Assembly (NCBI GenBank): GCA_028700415.1 | Contig: JAQVSS010000003.1 | Coordinates: 25,277 to 60,948, forward strand | Source of the DNA: Kiritimatiellia bacterium | GTDB taxonomy: Bacteria > Verrucomicrobiota > Kiritimatiellia > RFP12 > UBA1067 | Reading direction: 5' to 3' | Length of the DNA stretch: 35,672 nt | Shown here: piece after piece, positions 6,954 through 20,901 of the stretch | Layout: every line of letters begins with the position of its first letter | Position numbering within the stretch: the stretch's first letter is position 1 | Notes under the pieces: generated by a model | What the model was told of the DNA's origin: nothing | The model's input: the letters and a program-made list of their open reading frames with translations, nothing else | Database searches by the model: none | Translations under genes and position numbers: made by a program

Positions 6954-7076
6954 GCGGAAAAGCGAGAACCCCTAAAGCGAGATTCAAGTCGACACCCCTT
7001 CTTTTAATCGATAATCTGGCACGCATGATTGATGGGTAAAAGATTTCTGACGGGGCAATTAAGAAGGAGGCGGGGA

Positions 7077-10000
7077 ATGAAAAGGACGCATATTTTCGGA
7101 TGCGCATGTGCGGTGCTGCTGCCGTGCGCTGCGGCTGCCGTGGACGTTAAAGGCGATTTCGCGCAAACCGGGACAAACGGAAAACCGGTAGGCTGGGAGC
7201 GGAACGAGTGGGAGGGGTACAGGCCGTTCGCCAAATCCGAGGTCATCGATGACGCTGGCGCAAAAATTTTGCACATCTATGATGTCACGGCCGAACACGG
7301 TTTCGGGTGGAAGAGCGGCACGTATATCAAATGCAAATCCGGTGACACGCTCTTCGTCAGCGCCACCGTCAAAGGTAAAGGCTGCCTTTCCTTTCAGCTT
7401 CAGTATTTCGCAGCGGGCAGAAAATGGACCGGCTGCGACGTCAAAACCTCAAGCATGACCCTTTCCGACGCATGGTCCGCGGGTTCCGCCGAAATCGTTG
7501 TCCAAGACCTTGAGAATGGCATTACCGATGAAGCCTTCCTGACGTTCAGCGGCAAAAAAGGTGCTGAGGTCTATATCAAGGATATCAAGGCCTTTCATGA
7601 AAAAGGCGAATATGTCGGCCACCTCACGTTTCCGGTCGTGTGGAATTGCTTCGCGCCGGTCGACGGCGCGTTCGAACCTTCGGCAAAGGATCTGACGGCC
7701 ATTCCCCCGGCCTTCGGCGGCGTCAAGGGCAAGCCCATGGTTCTCAACGACAGCCAGCTGGACTTCCGCCCGTTCTTTTCCGGGCAGAAAGCGGGGAACT
7801 GCGGCTGGGCCTTTGCCGAGTTCGAGTCGCCGCTCGAGTGCGAATATACGCTCGGGGCCGGTGCCGACTGGTGGATGCGCTATTACCTCAATGGCGAGGT
7901 CATCCTAGACACCCTTAAAACCGGCAACGGCAAAAGGCAGCCGCGCGTTTCCGACCACACGAAGACCGTCAAAGTCAAGAAAGGCAGAAACGTCATCGCG
8001 GTCAAATTCCTGACCGGCAACGGCTCATCCGTCCTTGCGGTCGGCGGCGCAAACGAACTCCGCAAGCTCAAGACCCGGATGAATGTCGTCAAGACGTTTA
8101 AATCCGATGATTACGACACCCCCGGCACCCGTCCGGGCAACCCTGCGCTCATTCAGGATTATCCCTGTCCGGGGCTGCTGAAACTGACGGGGCAGGGCGT
8201 GTATACCGCCGCGCCCGAGGTCAGCGTCGGCTTTCCCGGCGAAGAATACACGTTGCCCCCCAAAAGCGGCGGCGACTATTTCATAACCGGCGTCCGCCTG
8301 CAGTCTTTCGGAACAAGGGAGCGCCGCGACTCGGCACTGACATTTGACATCGGCGGAAAACTTTCGGTCACACTCACGCACCGGAAAAATTCCCCCAGCG
8401 TCACCCTCGCCGCTTTCTCCGGAACCGAGGAGCTCAAACGTGCCGAACTGGCGGTTTCCGCTCTTCCCTCCGACCTCAAGCTTGCTGTGAACCACCACGG
8501 CTTCATCTTCATGATCGACAGTCTGGTGGACAGCAACCGCAGGATCTTTAAAGGACCGGCTCCGGTTCTGGCCACGCTGGAAAACAAGACGTTCGCGGCT
8601 GCGCTCGTTTTCCGCGCCGGCGGCGCCACCGCCGAAATGGTTGTCGACGACTATTTCACCGGGATCGCCGCGCTGGAGGCCGTAAGCAGCCAAATACCGT
8701 TCAAGGTCGATCTGCGCGAGACGTTCGATCCGGGCAAGGAGGGCTGGAAGCTGGTTTTCAGCGACGAGTTCGACGGCAGGGAAGTCGACTGGGAAAACAA
8801 ATGGTATCAGCCCGTCTGGGACAAAAAGGGGCGTAAGGATTTCGCCACGCTCACAAACGGTCTTCTGGAGCTCAAATGCGACTGGGATGAAAAGGAAAAG
8901 GACCAGCTGCGTACGATCGGGCTTTGGAGTCGCCAGACCTTCCTGTACGGTTATTTCGAGTCGCGCCTGAAATTCACGAAGGAGCCAGGATGGTGGGCGG
9001 CGTTCTGGGCCATCGATGAGGGCAGGAATCCGATGACCGGCGGCGGTTTCGAGATCGACATCTTCGAGGACTACTACACCCGCAACGGGGGCGGTGTTTT
9101 GGATCATAACCTGCACGTCAGCGGCGGCCAAGGGTCCAAAAGCTGGAATTACAGCACCAAGCTGCCCGGCTCGCTGGATGACTGGTATGTCATCGCCGCG
9201 AAATGGACTCCCTTCGAGGTCTCTTATTATCTCAACGGGAAGCTCATGAAAAGCTCCGCCCGGCACAGTCCGTATCAATCCGTCACGTTCGATGCGTTCA
9301 GCCATGCGTTCTGTGTCGCCCCGGTCCGCATCATCACCAGCGGCCAGATCCAGACCAAAGGCGAACGGGGCAAAAACTTCCCGGAGACCTATTATGTCGA
9401 TTATGTCCGCGTCTATCAGGATCCGGAGGCCTCTGTTCCGGAGGTCACCTGGGCGAAAAAACCCGCCAAGAATTTCGTCAGGAGGGGTGAGCCGCTCGTT
9501 ATGGAAGCAAAGGCCGCGGGCCGGAGCAAGGCCAAGACCGCGTATCTTTTCGACAACGGTTTTCTGATCGATTATAAAACACGGGAGCCGTTCCGCTTCG
9601 AGTTCGCGATCGACAAGAAGCATTACGAGGGCACGGCGTGGGAAGCGGGCGGACGGCAGGGAAACAAGTTCGTCCTCGACGGCTATCCGCATTCCTTCAG
9701 CATCGCGGTTCAGGATGAAAAAGGGTCGGTCGGTTTTGCGCCGGTCAACACGGTCATTGCGACCGACAGGGAGAGCGCTCCCTACCAGGGAAAAGCCGCC
9801 GAGGTGCCCGGCAAGATATTGCCCGGCAATTTCGACGAGGGCGGTGTTGACGTGGCCTACTGGCGTTTCCCGCCGGGAAAGGGCGCACACGCAAACACCT
9901 TCCGGCCCGGCGAGCGTATCAATGGGCACAGCATTTATATCCGCAACGGCGAGTGGGTCAACTACACGGTCAACGTCAAACGGGCGGGCGCGTACACGGT

Positions 10001-10238
10001 GACCCTGGACTATCTTCTGGGGAAAACGCACGATCCCGTTCCGCAGAGGATGCCGCTTATGATCGACGGCGTTCAGGTTGCGGATTTCGCGCTCACTCCC
10101 GAAGGGGAGCAAAAAGCCAGACGCAAGATCTCCGCCGCAGGTATCCGGCTCGAGCCCGGACCGCACACGGTCACGGTCATGTCGCTCGGAATCTGGACGC
10201 CGGTCTTTCTCGGGTTGGAGTTCACGCTTGCGGAATAA
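7077..10238 (+). CDS. secreted GH16 family glycoside hydrolase with C-terminal CBM6/35-like module
   Basis: 1053 residues from the ATG at 7077. AGGAGG at 7065-7070 stands 6 bases upstream, and the longer frame from 7029 lacks a site. A signal peptide (MKRTHIFGCACAVLLPCAAAAV) opens it. Residues ~25-340 form beta-rich modules, including a jelly-roll-like region with WWMRYYLNGEVI. The GH16 catalytic domain covers ~555-785 (WKLVFSDEFDG start) with the active-site motif EIDIFE at 659-664, so E659 is the nucleophile and E664 the acid/base. An Ig-like segment (~790-900) and a CBM6/35-like domain (~920-1050, GEWVNYTVNVKRAGAYTVTLDY) follow. GH16 enzymes cut beta-1,3/1,4-glucans or galactans such as laminarin, agar or carrageenan; the exact substrate is not readable. 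Export makes it an extracellular or periplasmic polysaccharide degrader. Confidence 0.9.
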   Translation: MKRTHIFGCACAVLLPCAAAAVDVKGDFAQTGTNGKPVGWERNEWEGYRPFAKSEVIDDAGAKILHIYDVTAEHGFGWKSGTYIKCKSGDTLFVSATVKGKGCLSFQLQYFAAGRKWTGCDVKTSSMTLSDAWSAGSAEIVVQDLENGITDEAFLTFSGKKGAEVYIKDIKAFHEKGEYVGHLTFPVVWNCFAPVDGAFEPSAKDLTAIPPAFGGVKGKPMVLNDSQLDFRPFFSGQKAGNCGWAFAEFESPLECEYTLGAGADWWMRYYLNGEVILDTLKTGNGKRQPRVSDHTKTVKVKKGRNVIAVKFLTGNGSSVLAVGGANELRKLKTRMNVVKTFKSDDYDTPGTRPGNPALIQDYPCPGLLKLTGQGVYTAAPEVSVGFPGEEYTLPPKSGGDYFITGVRLQSFGTRERRDSALTFDIGGKLSVTLTHRKNSPSVTLAAFSGTEELKRAELAVSALPSDLKLAVNHHGFIFMIDSLVDSNRRIFKGPAPVLATLENKTFAAALVFRAGGATAEMVVDDYFTGIAALEAVSSQIPFKVDLRETFDPGKEGWKLVFSDEFDGREVDWENKWYQPVWDKKGRKDFATLTNGLLELKCDWDEKEKDQLRTIGLWSRQTFLYGYFESRLKFTKEPGWWAAFWAIDEGRNPMTGGGFEIDIFEDYYTRNGGGVLDHNLHVSGGQGSKSWNYSTKLPGSLDDWYVIAAKWTPFEVSYYLNGKLMKSSARHSPYQSVTFDAFSHAFCVAPVRIITSGQIQTKGERGKNFPETYYVDYVRVYQDPEASVPEVTWAKKPAKNFVRRGEPLVMEAKAAGRSKAKTAYLFDNGFLIDYKTREPFRFEFAIDKKHYEGTAWEAGGRQGNKFVLDGYPHSFSIAVQDEKGSVGFAPVNTVIATDRESAPYQGKAAEVPGKILPGNFDEGGVDVAYWRFPPGKGAHANTFRPGERINGHSIYIRNGEWVNYTVNVKRAGAYTVTLDYLLGKTHDPVPQRMPLMIDGVQVADFALTPEGEQKARRKISAAGIRLEPGPHTVTVMSLGIWTPVFLGLEFTLAE

Positions 10239-10330: not shown

Positions 10331-10450
10331 AACGCTCAACGTTCAACGTTCAACTCTCAACGTTCAAGTGGGGAGAACTGCGAACGGATGCTAATCCCTA
10401 CGGGTTTTTTACTTGAGAGTTGAACGTTGAGCGTTGAGAGTTGAGAGTTA
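10331..10450. repeat. heptamer-array inverted-repeat element, left copy
   Basis: The left arm (10331-10369) is a run of 7-base units of the type TCAACGT/TCAACTC. The right arm (10411-10450) is the inverted counterpart, units TTGAACG/TTGAGCG/TTGAGAG. They enclose a ~42-base core (GGGGAGAACTGCGAACGG ... CCCTACGGG followed by a T-run). The same architecture and core recur at 10883-10988, where the left arm is shorter by exactly two heptamers. The two copies bracket the four-helix-bundle gene. The core's CCC-TAC-GGG plus T-run resembles a minimal terminator. Confidence 0.85.
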
Positions 10451-10481
10451 CTTAGTGTTTAACGTTACAAAGGATTCGCTT

Positions 10482-10883
10482 ATGCCTGACCGGACATTCG
10501 ACTTGGAAGAGCGGCTTCTGAACTATGCGGCGCTGATCATCCGGCTGGTCGAAAATCTGCCGGACACACGCGCGGGCAACCACATCGCCGGTCAATTGCT
10601 CCGTTCCGGCACCTCTCCGTTGCCCAACCACGGCGAGGCGGAAGGCGCGGAGTCGAAGAACGATTTCATCCACAAGCTGGGGATTTGCCACAAAGAACTG
10701 CGCGAGTCGCGCCGCTGGCTTAAGCTGATCCGGCGTGTGCCGCTGTTGACCGACACCGCCGCGTTGGATGCGGCCCTGGACGAGACCGACGAACTCGTCC
10801 GCATCTTCGCCGCCAGTATCCGCACCGCCCGCGCCGGCGGCTGCCGGGAAGACGGCGAAACGTATGGGGAAGAGAGGGGATGA
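10482..10883 (+). CDS. four-helix-bundle protein (S23 / 23S rRNA intervening-sequence type)
   Basis: 133 residues from the ATG at 10482, with AAGGA 7 bases upstream. The frame extends 16 codons further up but that part lies in the repeat element. Typical S23 features are RLLNYAALIIRLVENLP, AGNHIAGQLLRSGTSPLPNHGEA, KNDFIHKLGICHKELRESRRWLKLI and a helical C-terminus. The family forms pentameric helical bundles, was first seen inside 23S rRNA intervening sequences, and is related to the Avd accessory proteins of diversity-generating retroelements. Here there is no rRNA or reverse transcriptase nearby. Instead the gene is bracketed by two copies of the heptamer-array element, the right one starting at the last base of its stop codon. 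Function is unknown; association with the repeats suggests one mobile unit. Confidence 0.9.
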   Translation: MPDRTFDLEERLLNYAALIIRLVENLPDTRAGNHIAGQLLRSGTSPLPNHGEAEGAESKNDFIHKLGICHKELRESRRWLKLIRRVPLLTDTAALDAALDETDELVRIFAASIRTARAGGCREDGETYGEERG

Positions 10884-10988
10884 ACGCTCAACTCTCAACG
10901 CTCAAGTGGGGAGAGATGCGAACGACTGCCAATCCCTACGGGTTTTTACTTGGGAGTTGAGCGTTGCGCGTTGAGAGTTGAAAGTTTA
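10883..10988. repeat. heptamer-array inverted-repeat element, right copy
   Basis: Left arm 10883-10907 (AACGCTCAACTCTCAACGCT and on), then a core nearly identical to the left copy (GGGGAGAGATGCGAACGACT, then AATCCCTACGGGTTTTT), then right arm 10948-10987 of inverted heptamers. It begins at the last base of the four-helix-bundle stop codon. It runs into the 3' end of the minus-strand hydrogenase-related small-subunit gene, whose last ~15 codons and TAG stop lie inside it. Confidence 0.85.
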
Positions 10989-11760
10989 TGTCGTCTTCGA
11001 TGCGGCCGATCAGGCGGAGCAGGCCGTCGAGGATGGTGAGGGGGTTCGGCGGGCAGCCGGGAATGTAAAGGTCAACCGGCACGATGCTTTCCGCGCCGTT
11101 GCCGGCTTCCGCGTGCCCGATGTAGGGTCCGCCGGAGATCGCGCACGCGCCGACCGCGATGACGATGCGCGGATCGGAGACGGCGTCGTACGTTTTCTTG
11201 AGCGCGAGCGCCATGTTCCGCGACACAGGGCCGGTCACCAGAAGGCCGTCAGCGTGGCGCGGCGAGGCGACGAACTGGAGGCCGAAGCGACTCAGATCCC
11301 AGCCCACCGTGCCGAGCACGTTGGAGTCGGCCTCGCAGGCGTTGCAGCCCCCGGCGCTGACCTGCCGGAGCTTCAGCGAGCGGCCGAAGAGCTTCCTGTA
11401 CTTCGCGTCAAGGGCGGCCGCGGCGACTTCCGCCGCCTGCCGTTCGCGGGCCACGAGCAGGTCCTTGCGGCTGCGGGCCGCAAGCTGGTAGTTCTGCGAG
11501 AAGGTGATGGCTTGCTTGGGGCAGGCCTCGGCGCAGTCGGTGCAGAAGAGGCACTTGCCCAAATCGATGCGTCCGGGATCCTGCGGATCGAGCGCGCCGG
11601 TCGGGCAGGCGTCCGCGCAGGCGCGGCACCCCTCCGGGCACTGGGCGGTGTCGATGACGGGCCTTCCGCGGAAACGGTCGGGCAGCGGCGGCGGCGCGCC
11701 GTCGGGATACTTCATCGTGCGGTGTTTCTGCTGTAGCCGGGCGAGTAGGATATTGATCAT
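10936..11760 (-). CDS. ferredoxin (HyfH-like) fused to NuoB/HyfI-like small subunit of Ehr complex
   Basis: 274 residues from the ATG at 11760, which overlaps the preceding stop (ATGA). Residues ~35-90 hold two 4Fe-4S motifs: C41/C45/C48/C52 and C70/C73/C76/C80, as in HyfH/HycF/NuoI. Residues ~115-255 are the NuoB/HycG/HyfI-type small subunit, with C139, C142 (GGCNACEAD), C206 (VGACAISGG) and C236 (PGCPPNP) as ligands of the proximal 4Fe-4S cluster. In hydrogenase-4 these are two separate proteins; here they are one chain. It should pass electrons between a soluble partner and the membrane arm. The last ~14 residues come from the heptamer-repeat element and look unrelated to the family. Confidence 0.88.
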   Translation of the reverse strand: MINILLARLQQKHRTMKYPDGAPPPLPDRFRGRPVIDTAQCPEGCRACADACPTGALDPQDPGRIDLGKCLFCTDCAEACPKQAITFSQNYQLAARSRKDLLVARERQAAEVAAAALDAKYRKLFGRSLKLRQVSAGGCNACEADSNVLGTVGWDLSRFGLQFVASPRHADGLLVTGPVSRNMALALKKTYDAVSDPRIVIAVGACAISGGPYIGHAEAGNGAESIVPVDLYIPGCPPNPLTILDGLLRLIGRIEDDINFQLSTRNAQLPSKNP

Positions 11761-13289
11761 AAATCGTGTCCGCAGTAGGAGAGGTTGAAACTCTTGTTGC
11801 AGATCGGGAAGTCCGAGATCTCCTGGTCGCGCAGGGCATACGCGAGACCGGGCCAGTTGTGGAACGACGGGTCCACCACCTTGTAACGGGCGAACCGTCC
11901 CTGCGCGTCGGTGAGCGCCACATGACAAACCTCGCCCCGCCACCCTTCGTTGAGGGCGACCGCGAAGCTGTCCGGCGCAAGCGCCTTTACGGGGACACGG
12001 GGCGCCCCGGAAGGCAGTGACCGGATCTGGTCGCGGATGAAACCGATGGTGTGCTGGATCTCCAGCCAACGCACAAACGCGCGTGCGAAGACATCCCCCG
12101 ACTCGCACGTCGAGAGGGGAATATGCGAGAAGCAGAAGATGCCGGACGGCTGGTCGCGGCGGACGTCCCGCTCCAGGCCCGAGGCGCGTGCCGCAGGCCC
12201 GACGATGCCCAGCTCGGCCGCGACCTTGCGCGGCAGCGGCCCGACCTCCTCAAACCGCGCCATGACCGACTGGGTGTCCCACAGGAGCCGGATGGCGACG
12301 GTCGCGTCCTTTTCGCCCGCGTCCAGGCGTCGCCCGAGTTCCGCCATGCGGTCGGCGTCGGCGTCAAAACCCAGCCCGCCGGGCCGAATCAGGCCGCGCC
12401 CGAAACGGCTGCCGCACAGCAGGGCCGTCATGTTGAGAAAATCACCGCGGATGCGCCCGCAAAAACTGGCCGTGGGCAGATAGCCGACATCCCCCGCCAG
12501 CGCGCCGAGGTCCCCGATGTGGTTGGCCAAGCGCTCCAGTTCGAGGGCGATGCCCCGGACCGCCTGGGCGCGCGCACTCGCCTGGCAACCCGCGAGCGCC
12601 TCGATCACGTGGCTGTACGTGGTGGCGTGCGCGACGGTGGCGTCGCCCGACAACGTCTCGGCATAGTGAACCGTGCGCGCGTTGGGTCCGCCGATCAGCT
12701 CCTCCTCCACCCCTCGGTGCTGGAACCCCAGCGCGATTTCGAGGTGGAACACCTGCTCGCCGTGGCACTGGAAACGGAAATGGCCGGGCTCGATGACGCC
12801 CGCATGGACGGGGCCGACCGCGACCTCGTGGACCTGTTCGCCTTCAACGCGGTAGAAATCGCCCACAGCCGGGAGAATCGGCTGGCCGGCGGGCCGGCCC
12901 CATGCGTCGCGCCCGGTCCACGAGCGGCAATACCGCACCGGTTTGAACCACGGGTGGCCGATGGGCCTCAGACCGAACTGTTCGGCGATCTCGCGTTCGA
13001 AGAGATGTACTTGGGGGCAGCGCGGCGTGAGCGACGGGAACTCGCCGCCCGCGATATCCGTTGCCGCTGCGGACAAGAGGTTTTGCTCGTCGTCGGCGAG
13101 CACGGCATAAATCCGGGTCGCGCCGGGGATCGGCGAGGACGCTCCGAACAGGGCGCTCACCCGCTGGCGCGCGGCCACGCCGTCAAGGATGGCCTGGCCA
13201 AACACTTCGGGAGTGAGCACGGGGATTTCGGAGCGTTTGACCGCCTGCCCATTGGTCAGCGTCGCGAAGTCGGGGCGGGAAGCGTTCAT
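11757..13289 (-). CDS. HyfG/HycE/NuoCD-like large subunit lacking NiFe ligands (Ehr large subunit)
   Basis: 510 residues; start overlaps the stop of the HyfF-like gene by 4 bases. Residues ~30-130 are a NuoC/30-kDa-like domain ending in FEREIAEQFGLRPIGHP. The rest is NuoD/HycE-like (GFQHRGVEEEL, RLANHIGDLGALAGDVGY). Active NiFe hydrogenases of this group have CxxC after the HRG helix and a second CxxC near the C-terminus (DPCxxC). Here the first site reads LSGDATVAHATT (within about 208-225) and the second DPSFHNWP (473-480), with no cysteine at either. The protein therefore cannot hold the NiFe centre. This matches energy-converting hydrogenase-related (Ehr) complexes. The substrate of the catalytic pocket is not known. 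Confidence 0.88.
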   Translation of the reverse strand: MNASRPDFATLTNGQAVKRSEIPVLTPEVFGQAILDGVAARQRVSALFGASSPIPGATRIYAVLADDEQNLLSAAATDIAGGEFPSLTPRCPQVHLFEREIAEQFGLRPIGHPWFKPVRYCRSWTGRDAWGRPAGQPILPAVGDFYRVEGEQVHEVAVGPVHAGVIEPGHFRFQCHGEQVFHLEIALGFQHRGVEEELIGGPNARTVHYAETLSGDATVAHATTYSHVIEALAGCQASARAQAVRGIALELERLANHIGDLGALAGDVGYLPTASFCGRIRGDFLNMTALLCGSRFGRGLIRPGGLGFDADADRMAELGRRLDAGEKDATVAIRLLWDTQSVMARFEEVGPLPRKVAAELGIVGPAARASGLERDVRRDQPSGIFCFSHIPLSTCESGDVFARAFVRWLEIQHTIGFIRDQIRSLPSGAPRVPVKALAPDSFAVALNEGWRGEVCHVALTDAQGRFARYKVVDPSFHNWPGLAYALRDQEISDFPICNKSFNLSYCGHDL

Positions 13290-14719
13290 GGCTGGCCCTC
13301 CAGGAAAAGAACCGCGTCGCGGATGAGCGCGGTAATGGGCGCAGGAATGTAGACGCCCAGAAGCAACACGAGCAGCAGCAGACCGACAATCGGCGCGCTC
13401 GAGAGGAACGTGTCGCGGTACGGCCTGCTGCGCGCCTCGAACGAGGCGCGGCCCTGCACCACCTTCAGCACGGTCGCGCCCATGCCGATGAAAACCACCA
13501 GCAGCAGAAAGAGAAAGAGCCCGCCCGTGACGTAGCGTCCCGCGTCAAACGCGCCGTTGAGGATGGAGAACTCGCTGATGAAGGGGCCGAACGGCGGCGA
13601 GCCCGTGATGGCGAAAAAGCCGACGAGGAAGAGCGTACCGGAAAGCGGTACCCGGCGCATCGCGCCCGACACCTGTTCGGTGCTCTTGCTGCCGTAAGCG
13701 TGGTAAATGTTTCCGGCCGAGAAGAAGAGCATGCCTTTGGTCAAGCCGTGTACCAGAACGTGCAGCAGCGTGCCGAACAGGGCCGTCGCGCCGATGCCGA
13801 GCCCCATCGCGAGAATGCCCATGTGCTCAACGCTGGAATAGGCGAGCATCCGTTTGAAATCGCGCTGCCCGACGAGGAACACGCAGGCCACGCCCATGGA
13901 GAACAGCCCCATCCACAGCAGCGGGCGGGAAACGAAGGCCACATCCCCGGCAGCCGCGCAGATGTGGTACATGCGCAGGATCGACAGGAACGCGCAGGGC
14001 AACAAAGCGCCCGACAGCATCGCGGAGACCGGCGACGGGGCTTCGCTGTGGGCGTCTGGCAACCACGTGTGCATGGGCGCCAAACCCATCTTGGTGCCGT
14101 ACCCGACGAGCAGCAGCAGAAACGCGGCATGGAGCCACGGCTTGGACAACTGCGGCGCGTGTTTCAGAAGGCCCTCAAGCGTGAGCGTGGATTCCAGCCC
14201 CGCGTGCAGCGAGGAATAGGCAAGGAAAAAGGTTCCCAGCAATCCCAAGGCGATGCCCACGGAACAGACCATCATGTATTTCCAGGTGGCCTCGATGCTC
14301 CGCGGCGTGCGCTCGAAGTAGATCAGCGGCGCGGTTGCGAGGGTCGTGGCCTCGATGGCCACCCAGGTCAAACCGAGGTGGTGCGACCACGTGACCAGGC
14401 TCATGAGGCCGAGGAACGCCATAAAGCAGAAACAGAAGGCGCGGTTGGGATGTCCGGCGCAGTGGCGGAGATACCCCGCCGCATAGAAGGAGCAGAAGAA
14501 GAACAGCGTGCTGACAGTAAGGAGAATGATCTTGCCGAACGGGTCGAGCACGAGCCACACCGAACCGGCCGTCAGGTCCGGACGCGCAAGCGCGAAAACC
14601 GTCAGCGCGAAGTGCACGGCACCCGTTACCGGGATCAGCCAGGGCCTGAAGCGGTTGGATGGGAGGGCCGCGGCGAGGGCGGCCATTAGAATCGGGAAGA
14701 GAATCAGTGCGAACGCCAT
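13286..14719 (-). CDS. HyfF-like antiporter-type membrane subunit of Ehr complex
   Basis: 477 residues, multi-pass (about 13-14 hydrophobic segments). It is of the NuoL/M/N-MrpA/D antiporter family. The core GYGTKMGLAPMHTWLPDAHSEAPSPVSAMLSGAL carries the conserved lysine in the broken helix, and LAYSSVEHMGILAMGLGIG and HGLTKGMLFFSAGN follow as expected. The length matches HyfF more than the longer HyfB type. It should form part of the ion-pumping membrane arm. It follows the HyfE-like gene by 6 bases and overlaps the large-subunit gene, so translation is tightly coupled. Confidence 0.88.
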   Translation of the reverse strand: MAFALILFPILMAALAAALPSNRFRPWLIPVTGAVHFALTVFALARPDLTAGSVWLVLDPFGKIILLTVSTLFFFCSFYAAGYLRHCAGHPNRAFCFCFMAFLGLMSLVTWSHHLGLTWVAIEATTLATAPLIYFERTPRSIEATWKYMMVCSVGIALGLLGTFFLAYSSLHAGLESTLTLEGLLKHAPQLSKPWLHAAFLLLLVGYGTKMGLAPMHTWLPDAHSEAPSPVSAMLSGALLPCAFLSILRMYHICAAAGDVAFVSRPLLWMGLFSMGVACVFLVGQRDFKRMLAYSSVEHMGILAMGLGIGATALFGTLLHVLVHGLTKGMLFFSAGNIYHAYGSKSTEQVSGAMRRVPLSGTLFLVGFFAITGSPPFGPFISEFSILNGAFDAGRYVTGGLFLFLLLVVFIGMGATVLKVVQGRASFEARSRPYRDTFLSSAPIVGLLLLVLLLGVYIPAPITALIRDAVLFLEGQP

Positions 14720-14725
14720 GAGTCG

Positions 14726-15367
14726 TTACTCCTTCAGCGAAATCAGCCGGCGCGTATCCGTGGACGAGAACGCCTGGTTGATCTGATTGACGATAATGCA
14801 GATCACAAAGATGCCGACGAACAGATCCAGCAGCACGCCCATCTCGACGACGAACGGCATGGCTTCGACCAGCAGCATCCCGAAAATGAAAATGCCGTTT
14901 TCCAGCACGAGATAGCCCATGACTTGAGAAATGGCTTTGAACCGCGTGATCAACAGGATGAAGCCGACGAGCACGGTCGCGATGGCGGCCGGCACGATCA
15001 GCGCGCCCGTGTGATGCGCGGCGAGCGGCAACCGGTCGGCGAACAGCAGCGCAAAGACCGTGCCCAGCGCGCCGAGGATGACGGAGGTCTGAAGGCCGAT
15101 CAGGGGTTCGACCTCGCGCTTGATTTTGACGTCGCGCAACGCGCGGATCATCATGCCCGGAATCGCGATGCCTTTCAGCGCGATGGAGGTCACGACGGTC
15201 AGGGCGATCACGGGCGAAAAACGTTCGTGCAGCAGAAGGGGCAGGAGCCCCAACAGGGCGCCCTGTATGGCCACGGTCCGGATGACCGAAACGATCCGAA
15301 TCGTGCCGAGCGCAAAAAGGTTCAGCATCAAAACGATGACCAGAATGGAGTTAAGCAGGTTAGTCAT
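14726..15367 (-). CDS. HyfE-like membrane subunit (NuoK-related)
   Basis: 213 residues with about 6-7 membrane helices. The hydrophobic segments, the motif LENGIFIFGMLLVEAMPFVVEMGVLLDLFVGIFV and the position between HyfC-like and HyfF-like genes identify HyfE of hydrogenase-4 and related complexes, which carries a NuoK-like part with membrane-embedded acidic residues. It starts 4 bases after the stop of the HyfC-like gene. The C-terminus (STDTRRLISLKE) is cytoplasmic and polar. Confidence 0.85.
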   Translation of the reverse strand: MTNLLNSILVIVLMLNLFALGTIRIVSVIRTVAIQGALLGLLPLLLHERFSPVIALTVVTSIALKGIAIPGMMIRALRDVKIKREVEPLIGLQTSVILGALGTVFALLFADRLPLAAHHTGALIVPAAIATVLVGFILLITRFKAISQVMGYLVLENGIFIFGMLLVEAMPFVVEMGVLLDLFVGIFVICIIVNQINQAFSSTDTRRLISLKE

Positions 15368-15371
15368 AACA

Positions 15372-16280
15372 TTACCTTATCAGCAGGATGAACCCGAAGC
15401 CGCAGAAGAGCAGCGCGCCGACCAGCAGGTACGGCACGCGCCGCATCTGGAGACGCGCCATCACGGACTCCACGATGCCGATCACGACCGCCAGTCCCAG
15501 AATCTCCGCGAGATACAGCGGCCCGTCCAGCCACGCCTGGCCGAACCGGAACGGCGCGATCACATGGAGCAGCACCGTGCCCAGCACGAGCAGTTTGACG
15601 GCCGAGGCGTACAGGATCATGCTGAACAGGGGTCCGCTGTGATCGAGCACCATCGCCTCGTGGATCATCGTCAATTCCAGATGCGTGGTGGGGTCGTCAA
15701 CCGGGATGCGGCAGGTCTCGGCCAGCAGCACGATGAACAGGCCGATCCCGATCAGAACCAGCGGCGCGGCGATACCGGCCGACAAGGTGTTCGCGGGAGC
15801 CTGCAGCATCGCCGTCAGCGTGAGGGACCCCGAGATCTTCGCCAGCACCAGGAGGGCGAAGAAGAGAGCCGGTTCAGAGAGGCAGGCGAAAGTCACTTCG
15901 CGCGCCGACCCCATACCCTCGAAGGCCGAGCCGGTGTCCAGCGCGGCCGAGGTTGTGAAGAAACGCGCCAAACCGAAGAGATAGGCGAAAAGAATCAGGT
16001 CGCCCGCAAAAGCGATCGGCGCATCGCCCCCGCCCATCGGGATCAGCAGCCCGGCCAAAAGGGTCGCCGCCAGCGTAACGATCGGTCCCGCACGGAAAAC
16101 CCACGTGGTCGTTGTGCTCAGCACGAGTCCCCGGCGCATCAACTTGGCGAGGTCATAATAAGGCTGGAGGAACGGCGCGCCGACACGTCCGGCGAACCAC
16201 GCCTTGGTTTTGGCGATCACGCCCAACAGCAGCGGCGGAAGAAGCAGAAGAACCAAAACATGGAGGATGGTAGCGATCAT
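15372..16280 (-). CDS. HyfC/HycD/NuoH-like membrane subunit of Ehr complex
   Basis: 302 residues, about 8 membrane helices. Family hallmarks are GRVGAPFLQPYYDLAKLMRR near the N-terminus, FTTSAALDTGSAFEGMGSAREV, and AETCRIPVDDPTTHLELTMIHEAMVLDHSG. These form the NuoH-type interface that links the hydrophilic arm to the pump modules. The ribosome site GGGGAG lies within the last codons of the preceding gene, 6 bases away, suggesting coupled translation. Confidence 0.9.
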   Translation of the reverse strand: MIATILHVLVLLLLPPLLLGVIAKTKAWFAGRVGAPFLQPYYDLAKLMRRGLVLSTTTTWVFRAGPIVTLAATLLAGLLIPMGGGDAPIAFAGDLILFAYLFGLARFFTTSAALDTGSAFEGMGSAREVTFACLSEPALFFALLVLAKISGSLTLTAMLQAPANTLSAGIAAPLVLIGIGLFIVLLAETCRIPVDDPTTHLELTMIHEAMVLDHSGPLFSMILYASAVKLLVLGTVLLHVIAPFRFGQAWLDGPLYLAEILGLAVVIGIVESVMARLQMRRVPYLLVGALLFCGFGFILLIR

Positions 16281-16286
16281 TCTTTC

Positions 16287-18272
16287 TTAACTCCCCATGC
16301 CGCACCAGACGAGCAGCACGATCATAGCGATCAGGATGTAAAGCACGTACACGTGCGTCTGCCCTTGCTGCAGGACGCGCAGCCGGGGCAGACGCTGCCC
16401 GACCGCATGGAAGACCGGCATCACCAGCCGGTCGAGCACGGTGTCAGAAACCAGGCTTTTGAACGAGGAAGGCCTCGGGAAGAGCCCGTGCAGAGAGGTC
16501 CGGAATTTTCTGGGCCACAGGAGTAACGCGGTCAGAGCAACGAGCGCATCGCCGAGGGACGAGCCGGTGTATTGCATGCGCCCCGTCGGACGCGCGTAAC
16601 CGCAGTCCCAGGTGAGGCCCGCGCGGACGGTCTGCTGGCGCAACGTCATTTTCAGAATGAGGGTCACGGCACCGGCAAAAACCGCGAGCGTGAGCCCGGC
16701 CACCGTGAGACGCTCCAGCGGCACAACCGCCGCGAGGGTTCCCGCCCCGGCTGCCTGCGGCGACCAGGTGCGGACCGCGGATTCAAGCAGCGGTGCCGCG
16801 GCCAGCGGAAAGAGCCCCAGTCCGGCGCAGCCGCAGGCGAGGACGGCCATGGGCGCCAGCATCGTTGCGGGCGGCTCGTGCGCGTGGTTGCCCGCTTCGC
16901 TGCGCGGCGCGCCGAGGAAGACCGCCCCCAGCACCTTCACGAAGCACGCCGCCGCCAGCGCGCCGGTCATGGCCAGCGCCGCCGCCGCAAAAGCCCCCGC
17001 AGGCGTTCCCGTCTCCGCGCCGAGCCCCACGGTGCGGAACAGCCCGAGGTAGAGCAGCCACTCGCTGACAAAGCCGTTCAGGGGCGGCAACGCGCAGATC
17101 GCGACCGCGCCCACGGCGAAAAGCGCCATCACGCGCGGCAACCGTTTGGCAAGTCCGCCCATGCGGTCGATCTCACGCGTCCCCGCGGCATGGATGATCG
17201 CGCCAGCGTTGAAGAAGAGGAGCGATTTGAACAGGCTGTGGTTCCAGACGTGGAGCAACGCTCCGCCCAATCCCAGCAAGACCCATTCGGCATGGCCTTG
17301 GGAACGCCCGATCAGCGCCAACCCCACTCCCAGCGCGATGATGCCGATGTTCTCAATGCTGCTGTACGCCAGCAGCCGCTTCAGGTCGCGCTGGCCCATG
17401 GCGAACGCGATGCCCGCCACGCTGGTGATCCCGCCGACGGCCAGCACCAGAGTCCCCCACCACAGTTCGCTGACCGGCAGCAGGGCGGTCATCCGGACGA
17501 TGCCGTACACGCCCATCTTGAGCATCACGCCCGACATCACCGCCGACACATGGCTGGGCGCGTTGGCGTGCGCGCCGGGCAACCAGACGTGCAGGGGCAT
17601 GAGGCCCGCCTTGAAGCCGAAACCGATCAGCGCCAGCACAAAAACCGAACTGGACATCACCGCGGTGAACGCGTGTCCCGTTTCCAGCAGGAAAGAGCCT
17701 GTGGCGTGGCGCCAGCAGGAGAACATCGCAAACAGGCAGAGGGTGCCGATATGCGTGGCGATGAGGTAGATCCAGCCCGCCTTCCGGACTTCCGTTTTAT
17801 CGTCCTCGGCCGCCGCCGCGAAATAGGCCGCGATCGCCATCACCTCCCACGCGAGCAGAAAGAGCAGACCGTCGCGTGCGATCACGACCAGCGCCATCGC
17901 CCCCGCCAGCAGCCCGTAGGCGAGGCCCACGCGACAGCCGTTGGCCGGATGCTCGGACTGCTTCCAGTAACCGAGACCGTAGACGGATCCGAGCATGGGC
18001 ACGATAAACACGGGAAGCAGAAACAGGGCGGAAAGGGGGTCGACCGCCACCGCAAACCGGCTCTGGGGCAAACCCCACATCACGTTGAGCGAGGGCGCGG
18101 CATGGCCGGCAAGAATGGCCGCGACAACCGCCAAGCCCAACACGCTGCCGATCGCCATCAGGGCCGTCGCAATGCGTTGACCCGTCGCGGAGCGTGCCGG
18201 AAGCAGACAGGCCGGCACACCGCTGAACCCCATCGCGGCAATCGCAATCAACAAAATCAGCAAACCATTCAT
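16287..18272 (-). CDS. HyfB-like antiporter-type membrane subunit of Ehr complex
   Basis: 661 residues, about 15-16 membrane helices. Antiporter core: GFGFKAGLMPLHVWLPGAHANAPSHVSAVMSGVMLKMGVYGIVRM, with the two conserved lysines, then LAYSSIENIGIIALGVGL and HSLFKSLLFFNAGAIIHAAG. The C-terminal extension typical of HyfB/HycC (TWDCGYARPTGRMQYTGSS, then a basic segment and a final helix) is present. It is the first large pump module of the operon. The final ~95 residues are similar in layout to the separate 94-residue protein encoded just upstream (18301-18585). Confidence 0.9.
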   Translation of the reverse strand: MNGLLILLIAIAAMGFSGVPACLLPARSATGQRIATALMAIGSVLGLAVVAAILAGHAAPSLNVMWGLPQSRFAVAVDPLSALFLLPVFIVPMLGSVYGLGYWKQSEHPANGCRVGLAYGLLAGAMALVVIARDGLLFLLAWEVMAIAAYFAAAAEDDKTEVRKAGWIYLIATHIGTLCLFAMFSCWRHATGSFLLETGHAFTAVMSSSVFVLALIGFGFKAGLMPLHVWLPGAHANAPSHVSAVMSGVMLKMGVYGIVRMTALLPVSELWWGTLVLAVGGITSVAGIAFAMGQRDLKRLLAYSSIENIGIIALGVGLALIGRSQGHAEWVLLGLGGALLHVWNHSLFKSLLFFNAGAIIHAAGTREIDRMGGLAKRLPRVMALFAVGAVAICALPPLNGFVSEWLLYLGLFRTVGLGAETGTPAGAFAAAALAMTGALAAACFVKVLGAVFLGAPRSEAGNHAHEPPATMLAPMAVLACGCAGLGLFPLAAAPLLESAVRTWSPQAAGAGTLAAVVPLERLTVAGLTLAVFAGAVTLILKMTLRQQTVRAGLTWDCGYARPTGRMQYTGSSLGDALVALTALLLWPRKFRTSLHGLFPRPSSFKSLVSDTVLDRLVMPVFHAVGQRLPRLRVLQQGQTHVYVLYILIAMIVLLVWCGMGS

Positions 18273-18300
18273 CGGTATCAGACCTTTTTATCATGAATCC

Positions 18301-18585
18301 TTAACGCGCGAACCATTGCGCCGCGAACTGTTTGAAAGGAAACAGCATGCCCAAAAGCGCGAGCAGCGTCACAAGGATGCAAAGCACGTGGTGTTGGGTT
18401 AGCCCGCGCCGGAAGCGGTGGAACCGGGAGAACCAGACTTCGATCTTGCGTGCCGCCGGAAACATCAGCCGGTCCAGCACCGCGTCGGCCACATGACTGT
18501 GCAGGCTGCTGCCCGGCGCCGGGGAAAGCCCCGATACGCGCGGCAGCCGTCCCTGCGGACGGAGCACGCGACGGGACAGAAACAC
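18301..18585 (-). CDS. small membrane protein resembling the HyfB C-terminal tail
   Basis: 94 residues from a GTG at 18585 with GAAGGGA a few bases upstream. The sequence SSLHSHVADAVLDRLMFPAA aligns by eye with SSFKSLVSDTVLDRLVMPVF of the neighbouring HyfB-like protein. Both are followed by a basic amphipathic stretch ending in HVLCIL or HVYVLYIL and one final membrane helix. It looks like a free-standing copy of the antiporter C-terminal extension. It could be an accessory subunit or the remnant of a second, truncated HyfB/HyfD-type gene. It lies 28 bases from both neighbours in the operon. Confidence 0.7.
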   Translation of the reverse strand: MFLSRRVLRPQGRLPRVSGLSPAPGSSLHSHVADAVLDRLMFPAARKIEVWFSRFHRFRRGLTQHHVLCILVTLLALLGMLFPFKQFAAQWFAR

Positions 18586-18613: not shown

Positions 18614-19291
18614 TCATCCTTGAATCGCGGCCTCGGCGGTTGCCAGTACGGCCAGGATCTCGTCGCGGGAGGACTGCCGTTTGAGCGCCGCTTTAAAAGC
18701 CGGGTTATGCAGGATGAAGCCCAGCCGCGACAACAGGTGCAGATGTGTTTTGACCGTGGGGCTGATCAGCGTGAACAGGGTGTTGACCGGCTTGCCGTCG
18801 AGGGCGTGAAAATCGATGGGCGTCTCGAGAAAGCTGAGCGTGACAACCGGTTCGGAAACGTGCAGCACCACGGGATTCCGCACGTGGGGAATCGCGACGC
18901 CATCGCCGATGCCGGTGGAGCCCAGGCTCTCGCGGGCCAGCAGGATCTGATAGAGGAATTCGCGGTCAACCTTTTCCGGCAGTTTCAGCAGGCCGACAAT
19001 TGCCCGCAGCACGGAGGCTTGGTTGGTTCCGCCGACGCGGTAAACCACGCCTCCCGCCTTTAGCGCTTCGGTCAGTGTCGGCAAGACACCCTTGCCCAGC
19101 TCCTTCGCCTCGAAGAGATCGGGAGAGACGGGAATGTTGCGGGAGGTGGCCCACTCCAACAGGTCGGCGCGGTTGAAACGGATATCCTCGTTGACCGTGT
19201 GGGAGGGGATCTCTTCCTGCCTGACCCATTTATAGACCGTTTCGTCGGAAACGTTCAGAAGAGCTGCCGCATCTTTGACTGACAGTTGCAT
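18614..19291 (-). CDS. HTH (excisionase/MerR-like) fused to PTS EIIA type-2 domain (PtsN-like)
   Basis: 225 residues. Residues 1-55 are a winged-helix excisionase-type DNA-binding domain (LSVKDAAALLNVSDETVYKWVRQEEIPSHTV). Residues ~70-220 are an EIIA-fructose/nitrogen-type domain with the phosphorylatable histidine H136 in GVAIPHVRNP. Such fusions are candidate regulators that sense PTS(Ntr) phosphorylation. It is the first gene of the Ehr cluster, 28 bases before the small membrane gene, so it likely controls or tunes that operon. No Shine-Dalgarno is visible before the ATG, and the T-run of a terminator hairpin ends only about 9-10 bases upstream. Confidence 0.87.
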   Translation of the reverse strand: MQLSVKDAAALLNVSDETVYKWVRQEEIPSHTVNEDIRFNRADLLEWATSRNIPVSPDLFEAKELGKGVLPTLTEALKAGGVVYRVGGTNQASVLRAIVGLLKLPEKVDREFLYQILLARESLGSTGIGDGVAIPHVRNPVVLHVSEPVVTLSFLETPIDFHALDGKPVNTLFTLISPTVKTHLHLLSRLGFILHNPAFKAALKRQSSRDEILAVLATAEAAIQG

Positions 19292-19506: not shown

Positions 19507-20901
19507 TTACACGGCCTTTTTTGCCTCGGAATCAAAAAGGCGCTCGATTTCCTCCAACGATTTCCCTTTGGTTTCGGGGATGAACAACACCGTCAGGAAA
19601 TAAAGAACGCCCGAGGCCGCGAAACCGAAGAAAACGGGGCCGTATCCCCAGGCATTGACCATTGGGAAGAATGACGACGCGAGTCCCCAAGCCGTGAACT
19701 GATTCGCGAATAGCGCGATCGCTATGCCGTTCGCACGGATCCGCGACGGCATGAGTTCGGAAAGAATGAGCCACACGCAGATGCCCGGGCCCAGCGAATA
19801 AAAGGTCTGCATGGCGAGAAACGCCGCCAGCGTGACGAAACCGGAAACCGGCGAAGGCGTCATCCAGCCGCGCTCCAGGGCGAAGAACAGCGCACCTATG
19901 GCGGCCAATCCGACCGTCACTCCCGCCGTGCCGACTTTCAGTAGCCATGTTCGCCCCTTCCGGTCCACGAGCCCGACGGCCACGAGGGTCACGATGAGAT
20001 TCGTCGCCTTGAGCGCCAGATCCCCGGCGTTGCCGAGTGAACCGGAGAGTCCCGCCTTCTGGAAAAGGGTCACCGCATATGCGATGATCGAACTCATGCC
20101 GATCGTCTTGTTGAACGTGAGGACAAGGAGCGTGAGCAGGAACGGGACAACGTATCTGCGCTGTAACAAGGTCGAAGAGGCGGAGAGGAGGGAAGCCGGC
20201 GCACGCGTGCCATCCTCCGGCTTCACCGGCACTCCCGTAGTGCGGGCTCTGGACTTTCCGGCCCGTTTTTCCAGCCATACCGGCGACTCTTTCAGGAAGA
20301 GAGAACCGGCGAGGAGCACGCCCACCGGCAACACCGTCCACCAGAAGTTGACGCGCCAGGCCAACGACTTGGCCGCGGCCGGGACGACCTCCGCCGCCGC
20401 GTCCGCGGCACCGAAGACCTTGGCGACGAGAATGCCGACCGCCGCCGCCGAGACGAGTCCTATCCCGAGGAACAGCTGAAAAATCCCGGTGCCTTTCCCG
20501 CGCGTTTCCGCCGGTAGGCATTCCGCAAGGTACAGGGGCATCACCACCGCCATGTAACCGGCGCTCATCCCCTGCAGCACACGGCCCGTCAGCATCGTGA
20601 CGAGCGACGTTCCTGAGAAACACACCACCGGGACCGCCGCGAGAAAAAGCGCCGCCGAAAGGACAATCGTCCGCTTCCGGCCGAAACGTTCGCAGAGCAC
20701 GCCTGCCGTGGCGGACGCCAGAATCCCGCCGAACATCACGCCGCCGACAATCCAGCTCACCTGCGCGTCCGTGTAGATCTCCAGCGCTTTGATGTACGGC
20801 ATGGAAACGGCGATCACGCCGAAATCGATCCCGTAAAGGAGTCCGCCGAGCCCGCCGATCAGCAGCAGGAACTTCCCGTATGTCGTGTCGTCCCAGATCA
20901 T
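19507..20901 (-). CDS. MFS sugar porter
   Basis: 464 residues, 12 predicted membrane helices. Sugar-porter signatures are GGLLYGIDFGVI in helix 1, ERFGRKRTIVL (the RxGRR loop), GRVLQGMSAGYMAVVMPLYLAECLPAETRG, LVDRKGRTWLL in the second half, and the C-terminal PETKGKSLEEIERLF. It imports a monosaccharide or sugar acid across the inner membrane, normally with protons. Its ATG overlaps the stop of the dehydrogenase gene (ATGA), so it is the last gene of the catabolic operon and likely brings in that pathway's substrate. Confidence 0.9.
   Translation of the reverse strand: MIWDDTTYGKFLLLIGGLGGLLYGIDFGVIAVSMPYIKALEIYTDAQVSWIVGGVMFGGILASATAGVLCERFGRKRTIVLSAALFLAAVPVVCFSGTSLVTMLTGRVLQGMSAGYMAVVMPLYLAECLPAETRGKGTGIFQLFLGIGLVSAAAVGILVAKVFGAADAAAEVVPAAAKSLAWRVNFWWTVLPVGVLLAGSLFLKESPVWLEKRAGKSRARTTGVPVKPEDGTRAPASLLSASSTLLQRRYVVPFLLTLLVLTFNKTIGMSSIIAYAVTLFQKAGLSGSLGNAGDLALKATNLIVTLVAVGLVDRKGRTWLLKVGTAGVTVGLAAIGALFFALERGWMTPSPVSGFVTLAAFLAMQTFYSLGPGICVWLILSELMPSRIRANGIAIALFANQFTAWGLASSFFPMVNAWGYGPVFFGFAASGVLYFLTVLFIPETKGKSLEEIERLFDSEAKKAV

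Follow-up and report, generated by a model that had tools for sequence, protein, structure and literature searches.

Energy-converting hydrogenase-related (Ehr) complexes are widespread across bacterial phyla and common in soil, sediment and groundwater bacteria, where they are annotated as hydrogenase 4 or formate hydrogenlyase (FHL) and give rise to claims of H2 production. They have been reported without an assigned function in Sulfobacillus (PMC4378227), in Margulisbacteria and relatives (PMC6349859), in CPR bacteria (PMC7304191) and in comammox Nitrospira (PMC10284858), and the role of the seven-gene complex of Geobacter sulfurreducens (GSU0739-0745) was never investigated (PMC7894505). 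An operon of this kind in a Kiritimatiellia bacterium raises the question of whether its product can perform hydrogen chemistry at all and, if not, what reaction it carries out. The window, meaning the whole 35,672-nucleotide stretch analysed, is one part of a 4.9 Mb MAG that is 87% complete, so absences from the host genome are provisional; the named relatives of the host are Kiritimatiellae/Lentisphaerae bacteria. New here are a replacement signature, its contrast with the quinone and MBS sites, a PTS-type regulator and, by genome counts, the Hyp independence of Ehr (HYP INDEPENDENCE).

Organization of the operon

The operon occupies the minus strand from 18585 to 10936 and encodes HyfB-, HyfC-, HyfE- and HyfF-like subunits, a 510-aa large subunit and a HyfH/HyfI fusion whose ATG start overlaps the stop codon of the large subunit gene (Table 1). 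Open reading frames were found at the places given by the first-pass annotation for this gene set, and their Pfam and NCBIfam identities agree with it. The gene coordinates thus stand, while the outer edge that it drew at 18585 takes in a 94-aa HyfB-like tail and omits the regulator immediately upstream. None of the operon's proteins passed the NCBIfam hydrogenase-4 equivalog cut-offs; HyfB, for example, scored 568 bits against a subunit B cut-off of 667. Across 80 named loci the regulator came first, followed by a single or a second HyfB-like gene and then by C, E, F, large subunit and HI. The seven genes of the Geobacter cluster are consistent with B' B C E F LSU HI, where LSU is the large subunit and B' a second HyfB-like gene. 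Several loci (L170, L172 and L182-L183) carried Ehr gene sets in tandem or doubled, and in L170 the first operon encloses an extra C-E-F-LSU set that has no small subunit of its own.

Table 1. Positions of the Ehr genes, their key residues and the upstream regulator in the window
Feature	Position	Strand	Evidence
Predicted regulator: HTH_17 (excisionase-type) and PtsN/fructose-type PTS IIA domain	18614..19291	-	Pfam HTH_17 1e-14, PTS_EIIA_2 3.5e-26
94-aa ORF, C-terminal remnant of second HyfB-like subunit (B')	18301..18585	-	
HyfB-like antiporter-type membrane subunit, 661 aa	16287..18272	-	Pfam Proton_antipo_M 1.2e-49
HyfC/NuoH-like membrane anchor, 302 aa	15372..16280	-	Pfam NADHdh 2.5e-28
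HyfE-like membrane subunit, 213 aa	14726..15367	-	NCBIfam hydrogenase 4 membrane subunit 5e-18
HyfF-like antiporter-type subunit, 477 aa	13286..14719	-	NCBIfam hydrogenase 4 subunit F 2e-104, under cut-off
Ehr large subunit (NuoC-NuoD/HycE-like), 510 aa, without NiFe ligands	11757..13289	-	
E167, column of MbhL E21 / HycE E193, hydrogenase proton-transfer Glu	12789..12791	-	
Former ligand site 1, residues 214-217, SGDA replacing CGIC	12639..12650	-	Alignment
Former ligand site 2 and C-terminus, residues 497-510, CNKSFNLSYCGHDL	11760..11801	-	Alignment
HyfH/HyfI fusion, 274 aa	10936..11760	-	Pfam Fer4 and Oxidored_q6

The large subunit lacks the NiFe ligands

The best match to the large subunit among PDB sequences was E. 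coli HycE (7z0s_E, 2.7e-47), which was also the best fold match (TM 0.85) to its AlphaFold model (mean pLDDT 86). We aligned the subunit with HycE, HyfG, MbhL and true group 4 homologues from the host's order. In this alignment, CGIC of HycE corresponds to SGDA and CYSC to SYCG, leaving all four ligand columns without a NiFe-ligand cysteine, as had been claimed from the sequence of this operon. The CxxC column of the second site falls in NLSYCGHDL (residues 502-510), the last nine residues of the protein, with S504 at the C3 column, G507 at the C4 column and a conserved cysteine, C506, between the two. The first-pass annotation had located the first site correctly at residues 214-217 and had taken DPSFHNWP for the second. 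We rejected the latter as a ligand site, as these residues (473-480) align with the ATYANWP segment of HycE, approximately 30 residues upstream of the true site. Judged by the alignment, the conclusion drawn from the misplaced site, that the ligands are missing, is right all the same. The chain terminates where mature hydrogenase subunits terminate, and hence leaves a maturation protease nothing to cut off. From its ligand columns, the Ehr large subunit is predicted to be unable to bind the NiFe center needed for hydrogen chemistry.

A conserved signature replaces the ligand sites

The vacated columns are themselves conserved. Across 56 Ehr large subunits, C1 was alanine in 51, serine in 3, cysteine in 1 and valine in 1; C2 was threonine in 52, alanine in 2 and serine in 2; and C3 and C4 were invariably serine and glycine, respectively. 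Cysteine was therefore absent from C2, C3 and C4 in all 56 and from C1 in 55. G215 and D216, which adjoin the ligand columns, were invariant, and the C-terminal motif CNKSFNLSYCG was nearly so. Together these define an alternative, near-invariant site signature, [AS]GD[TSA] plus NKSF..SY.G. The E167 column held glutamate in 56 of 56 Ehr rows and holds glycine in complex I.

Because the 80 named loci were retrieved with patterns containing the C-terminal motif, its invariance among them is partly built in, and the unbiased evidence comes from whole-protein searches at the order and phylum levels. The motif was present in all 13 intact homologues from the host's order, and deep Ehr members found phylum-wide, down to about 295 bits, retained both GD and NKSF..SY.G. 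The homologues read below about 212 bits were all CGIC/CxxC hydrogenases with the exception of L176. We rejected C497 and C506 as universal metal ligands, having found V/I and S/A at these positions in deep Ehr members. The placement of the C-terminal motif in the pocket rests on the alignment, since residues 495-510 had pLDDT below 50 in the single-chain model.

Relative to its relatives, the large subunit gene had a dN/dS of 0.10-0.15, indicating purifying selection. The pattern of conservation argues that the vacated NiFe site was replaced and would be functional rather than decayed, and the Ehr large subunit probably carries out a reaction other than hydrogen chemistry. The signature makes sequence sufficient for telling Ehr apart from genuine group 4 hydrogenases and supplies candidate residues for mutation. 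Ehr large subunits of L034-L037 have no NuoC-like N-terminal part and end in CGTDR. The large subunit of L176 (3659-5230) has neither the NiFe cysteines nor the Ehr signature, reading AGTT and FGLSVAEND instead, and possibly belongs to another NiFe-less class.

Ehr in relation to known systems

To place the family, we built a maximum-likelihood tree without both ligand regions and with few reference sequences. Ehr formed one clade (support 98/95) that joined the long-branch L176 (100/98) and then HycE/HyfG (96/96). The proposal that Ehr lies between group 4 hydrogenases and complex I was not borne out by this topology, in which Ehr sits beside HycE/HyfG, while an AU test did not reject a grouping of Ehr with complex I (p = 0.19).

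The assignment to Ehr itself was upheld by a group-4-like subunit set, the missing NiFe ligands, the lack of HypD and a 98/95 clade shared with Desulfuromonadales homologues. The large subunit is related to those of group 4 hydrogenases and has no CxxC NiFe motifs; Hyf/Ech-like subunits and antiporter-type membrane proteins are encoded in a single operon; and the clade includes the Desulfuromonadaceae locus L098, which represents the Geobacter-type bacteria. The operon shares its subunit set and NiFe ligand loss with Ehr of Geobacter, Sulfobacillus, Margulisbacteria, Nitrospira and CPR bacteria, and its large subunit is approximately 57-62% identical to, and of the same family as, those of Desulfuromonadales/Geobacter-type Ehr. 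These results support the conclusion that the operon encodes an Ehr complex, a known kind. It differs from known Ehr in that one HyfB-like gene is cut to a 94-aa tail.

E. coli FHL and hydrogenase 4 (HycE, HyfG) provide the nearest PDB sequence and fold, the same membrane subunits and the same E193 column. In contrast to them, Ehr has no NiFe ligands, no HycI-cleaved extension and no formate dehydrogenase, and is HypD-independent. Complex I (NuoD/Nqo4) resembles Ehr in fold, order of the FeS chain, antiporter subunits and NiFe ligand loss, but Ehr has neither NuoEFG nor the quinone His and Tyr, and its proximal motif is CxxC rather than the CC of complex I.

Maturation genes and the case for hydrogen

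Active group 4 [NiFe] hydrogenases and FHL have four cysteines in L1 and L2, which this subunit does not, and depend on the Hyp machinery, of which HypD was absent from the host MAG at 87% completeness. Among 60 relatives, HypD was missing from 14 of the 17 Ehr-bearing genomes; in other lineages, 15 of 50 genomes with Ehr lacked it. MAG incompleteness may explain some of these absences but hardly all, and where HypD is present in Ehr-bearing genomes it may serve other hydrogenases. Nor did the host genome contain a molybdopterin oxidoreductase (PF00384; Mo-bisPGD enzymes), the family of the FHL formate dehydrogenase partner. The first-pass annotation had seen no formate dehydrogenase or maturation gene in the window, and this holds beyond the window for HypD and the molybdopterin oxidoreductase family. 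The partnership with a formate dehydrogenase that has been proposed for Margulisbacteria (PMC6349859) was rejected for this host, which has no Mo-bisPGD enzyme, and no such enzyme or formate dehydrogenase recurred next to the operon in 80 loci.

These observations bear on whether Ehr could be an FHL or other H2-evolving complex despite its absent ligands, as suggested for Geobacter. In G. sulfurreducens all Ehr subunits are made and are more abundant during growth on formate, from which the authors raised the production of H2 from formate (PMC7894505). However, the ligand columns, as aligned, argue against H2 chemistry in Ehr, the host genome has neither HypD nor a Mo formate dehydrogenase, and genuine group 4 members from the host's phylum retain both CGIC and CxxC. 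We consider hydrogen evolution by this complex scarcely credible.

Electron donor, acceptor and ion pumping

The HyfH/HyfI fusion carries motifs for two ferredoxin-type [4Fe-4S] clusters and the proximal [4Fe-4S] cluster of the small subunit. Its 8 ferredoxin-type and 4 proximal cysteines, 12 in total, were each conserved in at least 71 of 77 homologues. The proximal motif has the CxxC spacing of hydrogenases, and is neither the CC of complex I nor the three-cysteine form of MBS. At the columns of NuoM E144, K234, K265 and E407, HyfB has E, K, K and E and HyfF has E, K, P and E, such that most antiporter charged residues are retained; HyfF of E. coli likewise lacks the third lysine (K265 column). 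As read from the sequence, these FeS and antiporter residues lend support to two predicted functions, the uptake of electrons from a ferredoxin-like carrier and the pumping of ions.

The genomic setting is compatible with such a donor. Rnf and two NADH-dependent [FeFe] A6 hydrogenases, found in the host genome along with a NuoEF-like fusion, show a ferredoxin economy, and the host looks like a fermentative, ferredoxin-based anaerobe. The Ehr locus has genes for neither NuoEFG nor a Mo enzyme and the genome lacks Mo-bisPGD enzymes, so that a soluble carrier is left as the donor.

The P. furiosus MBS sulfane reductase offers one precedent for the acceptor, being like Ehr derived from group 4 with its NiFe function lost, and it pumps ions. 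Reduction of polysulfide in the manner of MBS, at a proximal [4Fe-4S] cluster that is open, would accord with this history, and MBS is also without equivalents of E21, H38 and Y87 (PMC7684303). Yet MBS requires a three-cysteine proximal cluster and a shortened loop, whereas Ehr conserves four cysteines with CxxC spacing; MBS keeps two of the four ligand cysteines, whereas the host subunit keeps none of four; and the glutamate lost in MBS is retained in Ehr. Polysulfide reduction of this type is very unlikely in our estimation.

Quinones provide a second precedent. Ehr could be a ferredoxin:menaquinone oxidoreductase, working as an Fpo-like or NDH-1-like minimal complex I whose quinone site was rebuilt from the Ehr motif, given that Ehr and complex I share a fold family and that the literature places Ehr in respirers that use quinones, among them comammox Nitrospira and Geobacter. 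A UbiA search of the host genome gave three matches, one of them to a MenA-like prenyltransferase that fell under the curated cut-off. Against this, both quinone headgroup residues of complex I were replaced in 56 of 56 Ehr rows, with isoleucine at the column of Nqo4 H38 and glycine at that of Y87. No menaquinone genes accompany the MenA-like gene within the stretch read around it, the host genome contains no cytochrome bd and no other homologue of the complex I 49-kDa subunit, and Ehr also occurs in CPR bacteria (PMC7304191). We view menaquinone reduction in the manner of complex I as rather unlikely, while less so than the sulfur reaction.

We favor, as the probable reading, that Ehr is a membrane-bound, ion-translocating oxidoreductase that is fed by ferredoxin and reduces a small-molecule acceptor. 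Under this model, reduced ferredoxin would dock on the HyfH part of the fusion, with its two [4Fe-4S] clusters, and pass electrons to the fully cysteine-ligated, hydrogenase-type proximal [4Fe-4S] cluster in the HyfI part. From there, electrons would reach a small-molecule acceptor in the former NiFe pocket, the putative lining of which comprises the conserved GD[TSA] loop, the glutamate kept at E167 and NKSFNLSYCG from the C-terminus. The acceptor may be a quinone-like molecule bound unlike in complex I, or another small molecule. By homology and the retained charges, its reduction would drive H+ or Na+ pumping via the HyfC anchor and HyfB/HyfF, and expression would be under a regulator sensitive to PTS phosphorylation. 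More tentatively, and at less than even odds, the pocket could be a distinct catalytic site with an acceptor foreign to known complex-I relatives, and with synthesis tied to phosphorylation by the sugar/nitrogen PTS through a dedicated regulator. Geobacter, Trichlorobacter and Pontiella are cultured hosts in which the reaction of this entire branch of relatives of complex I could be sought and found.

A PTS-type regulator accompanies the operon

The predicted regulator upstream of the operon has its phosphorylatable histidine at H136. A regulator of this type was near the first HyfB gene in 45 of the 62 Ehr operons with enough upstream DNA, and the HTH_17-PTS IIA fusion is conserved beside Ehr operons in many phyla (L052-L131). 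The phospho-accepting histidine was retained in 53 of 53 rows, and the host genome encodes Enzyme I (EI) of the PTS. From this conservation we infer that the Ehr operon may be under PTS phosphorylation control. A literature search limited to open-licence papers did not return the link between this regulator and Ehr. On its far side, the regulator gene is adjoined by one for an MFS sugar transporter of the xylose/glucose type (19507-20901).

Downstream of the operon, the only recurring genes were those for GAPDH (PRK08289 type) and a GGDEF protein, in approximately 10 mostly Desulfuromonadales loci. The long-form GAPDH gene lies a short distance 3' of Ehr in L083, L088, L089, L093, L098, L099, L107, L113 and L079, often followed by that for the GGDEF protein. 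In the window, the operon is followed by a gene for a four-helix protein of the 23S rRNA intervening-sequence type (10434-10883) and then by one for a secreted, 1069-aa glycoside hydrolase family 16 protein of the beta-glucanase type (7029-10238).

A shortened second HyfB-like gene

The close relatives L024-L027 have a complete B' of 665-670 aa between the regulator and HyfB. The 94-aa ORF of the host is positioned right after the regulator gene and is 58% identical to the part of the L024 B' (665 aa) that spans residues 543-665, with a VFL-like, B'-like start joined in frame to the last ~90 residues. The shortening is apparently an in-frame internal deletion, which may be either a true deletion or an assembly error. 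The dN/dS of the remnant was 0.31-0.34. Operons with only one HyfB are common elsewhere, at 48 of 61 by simple counting.
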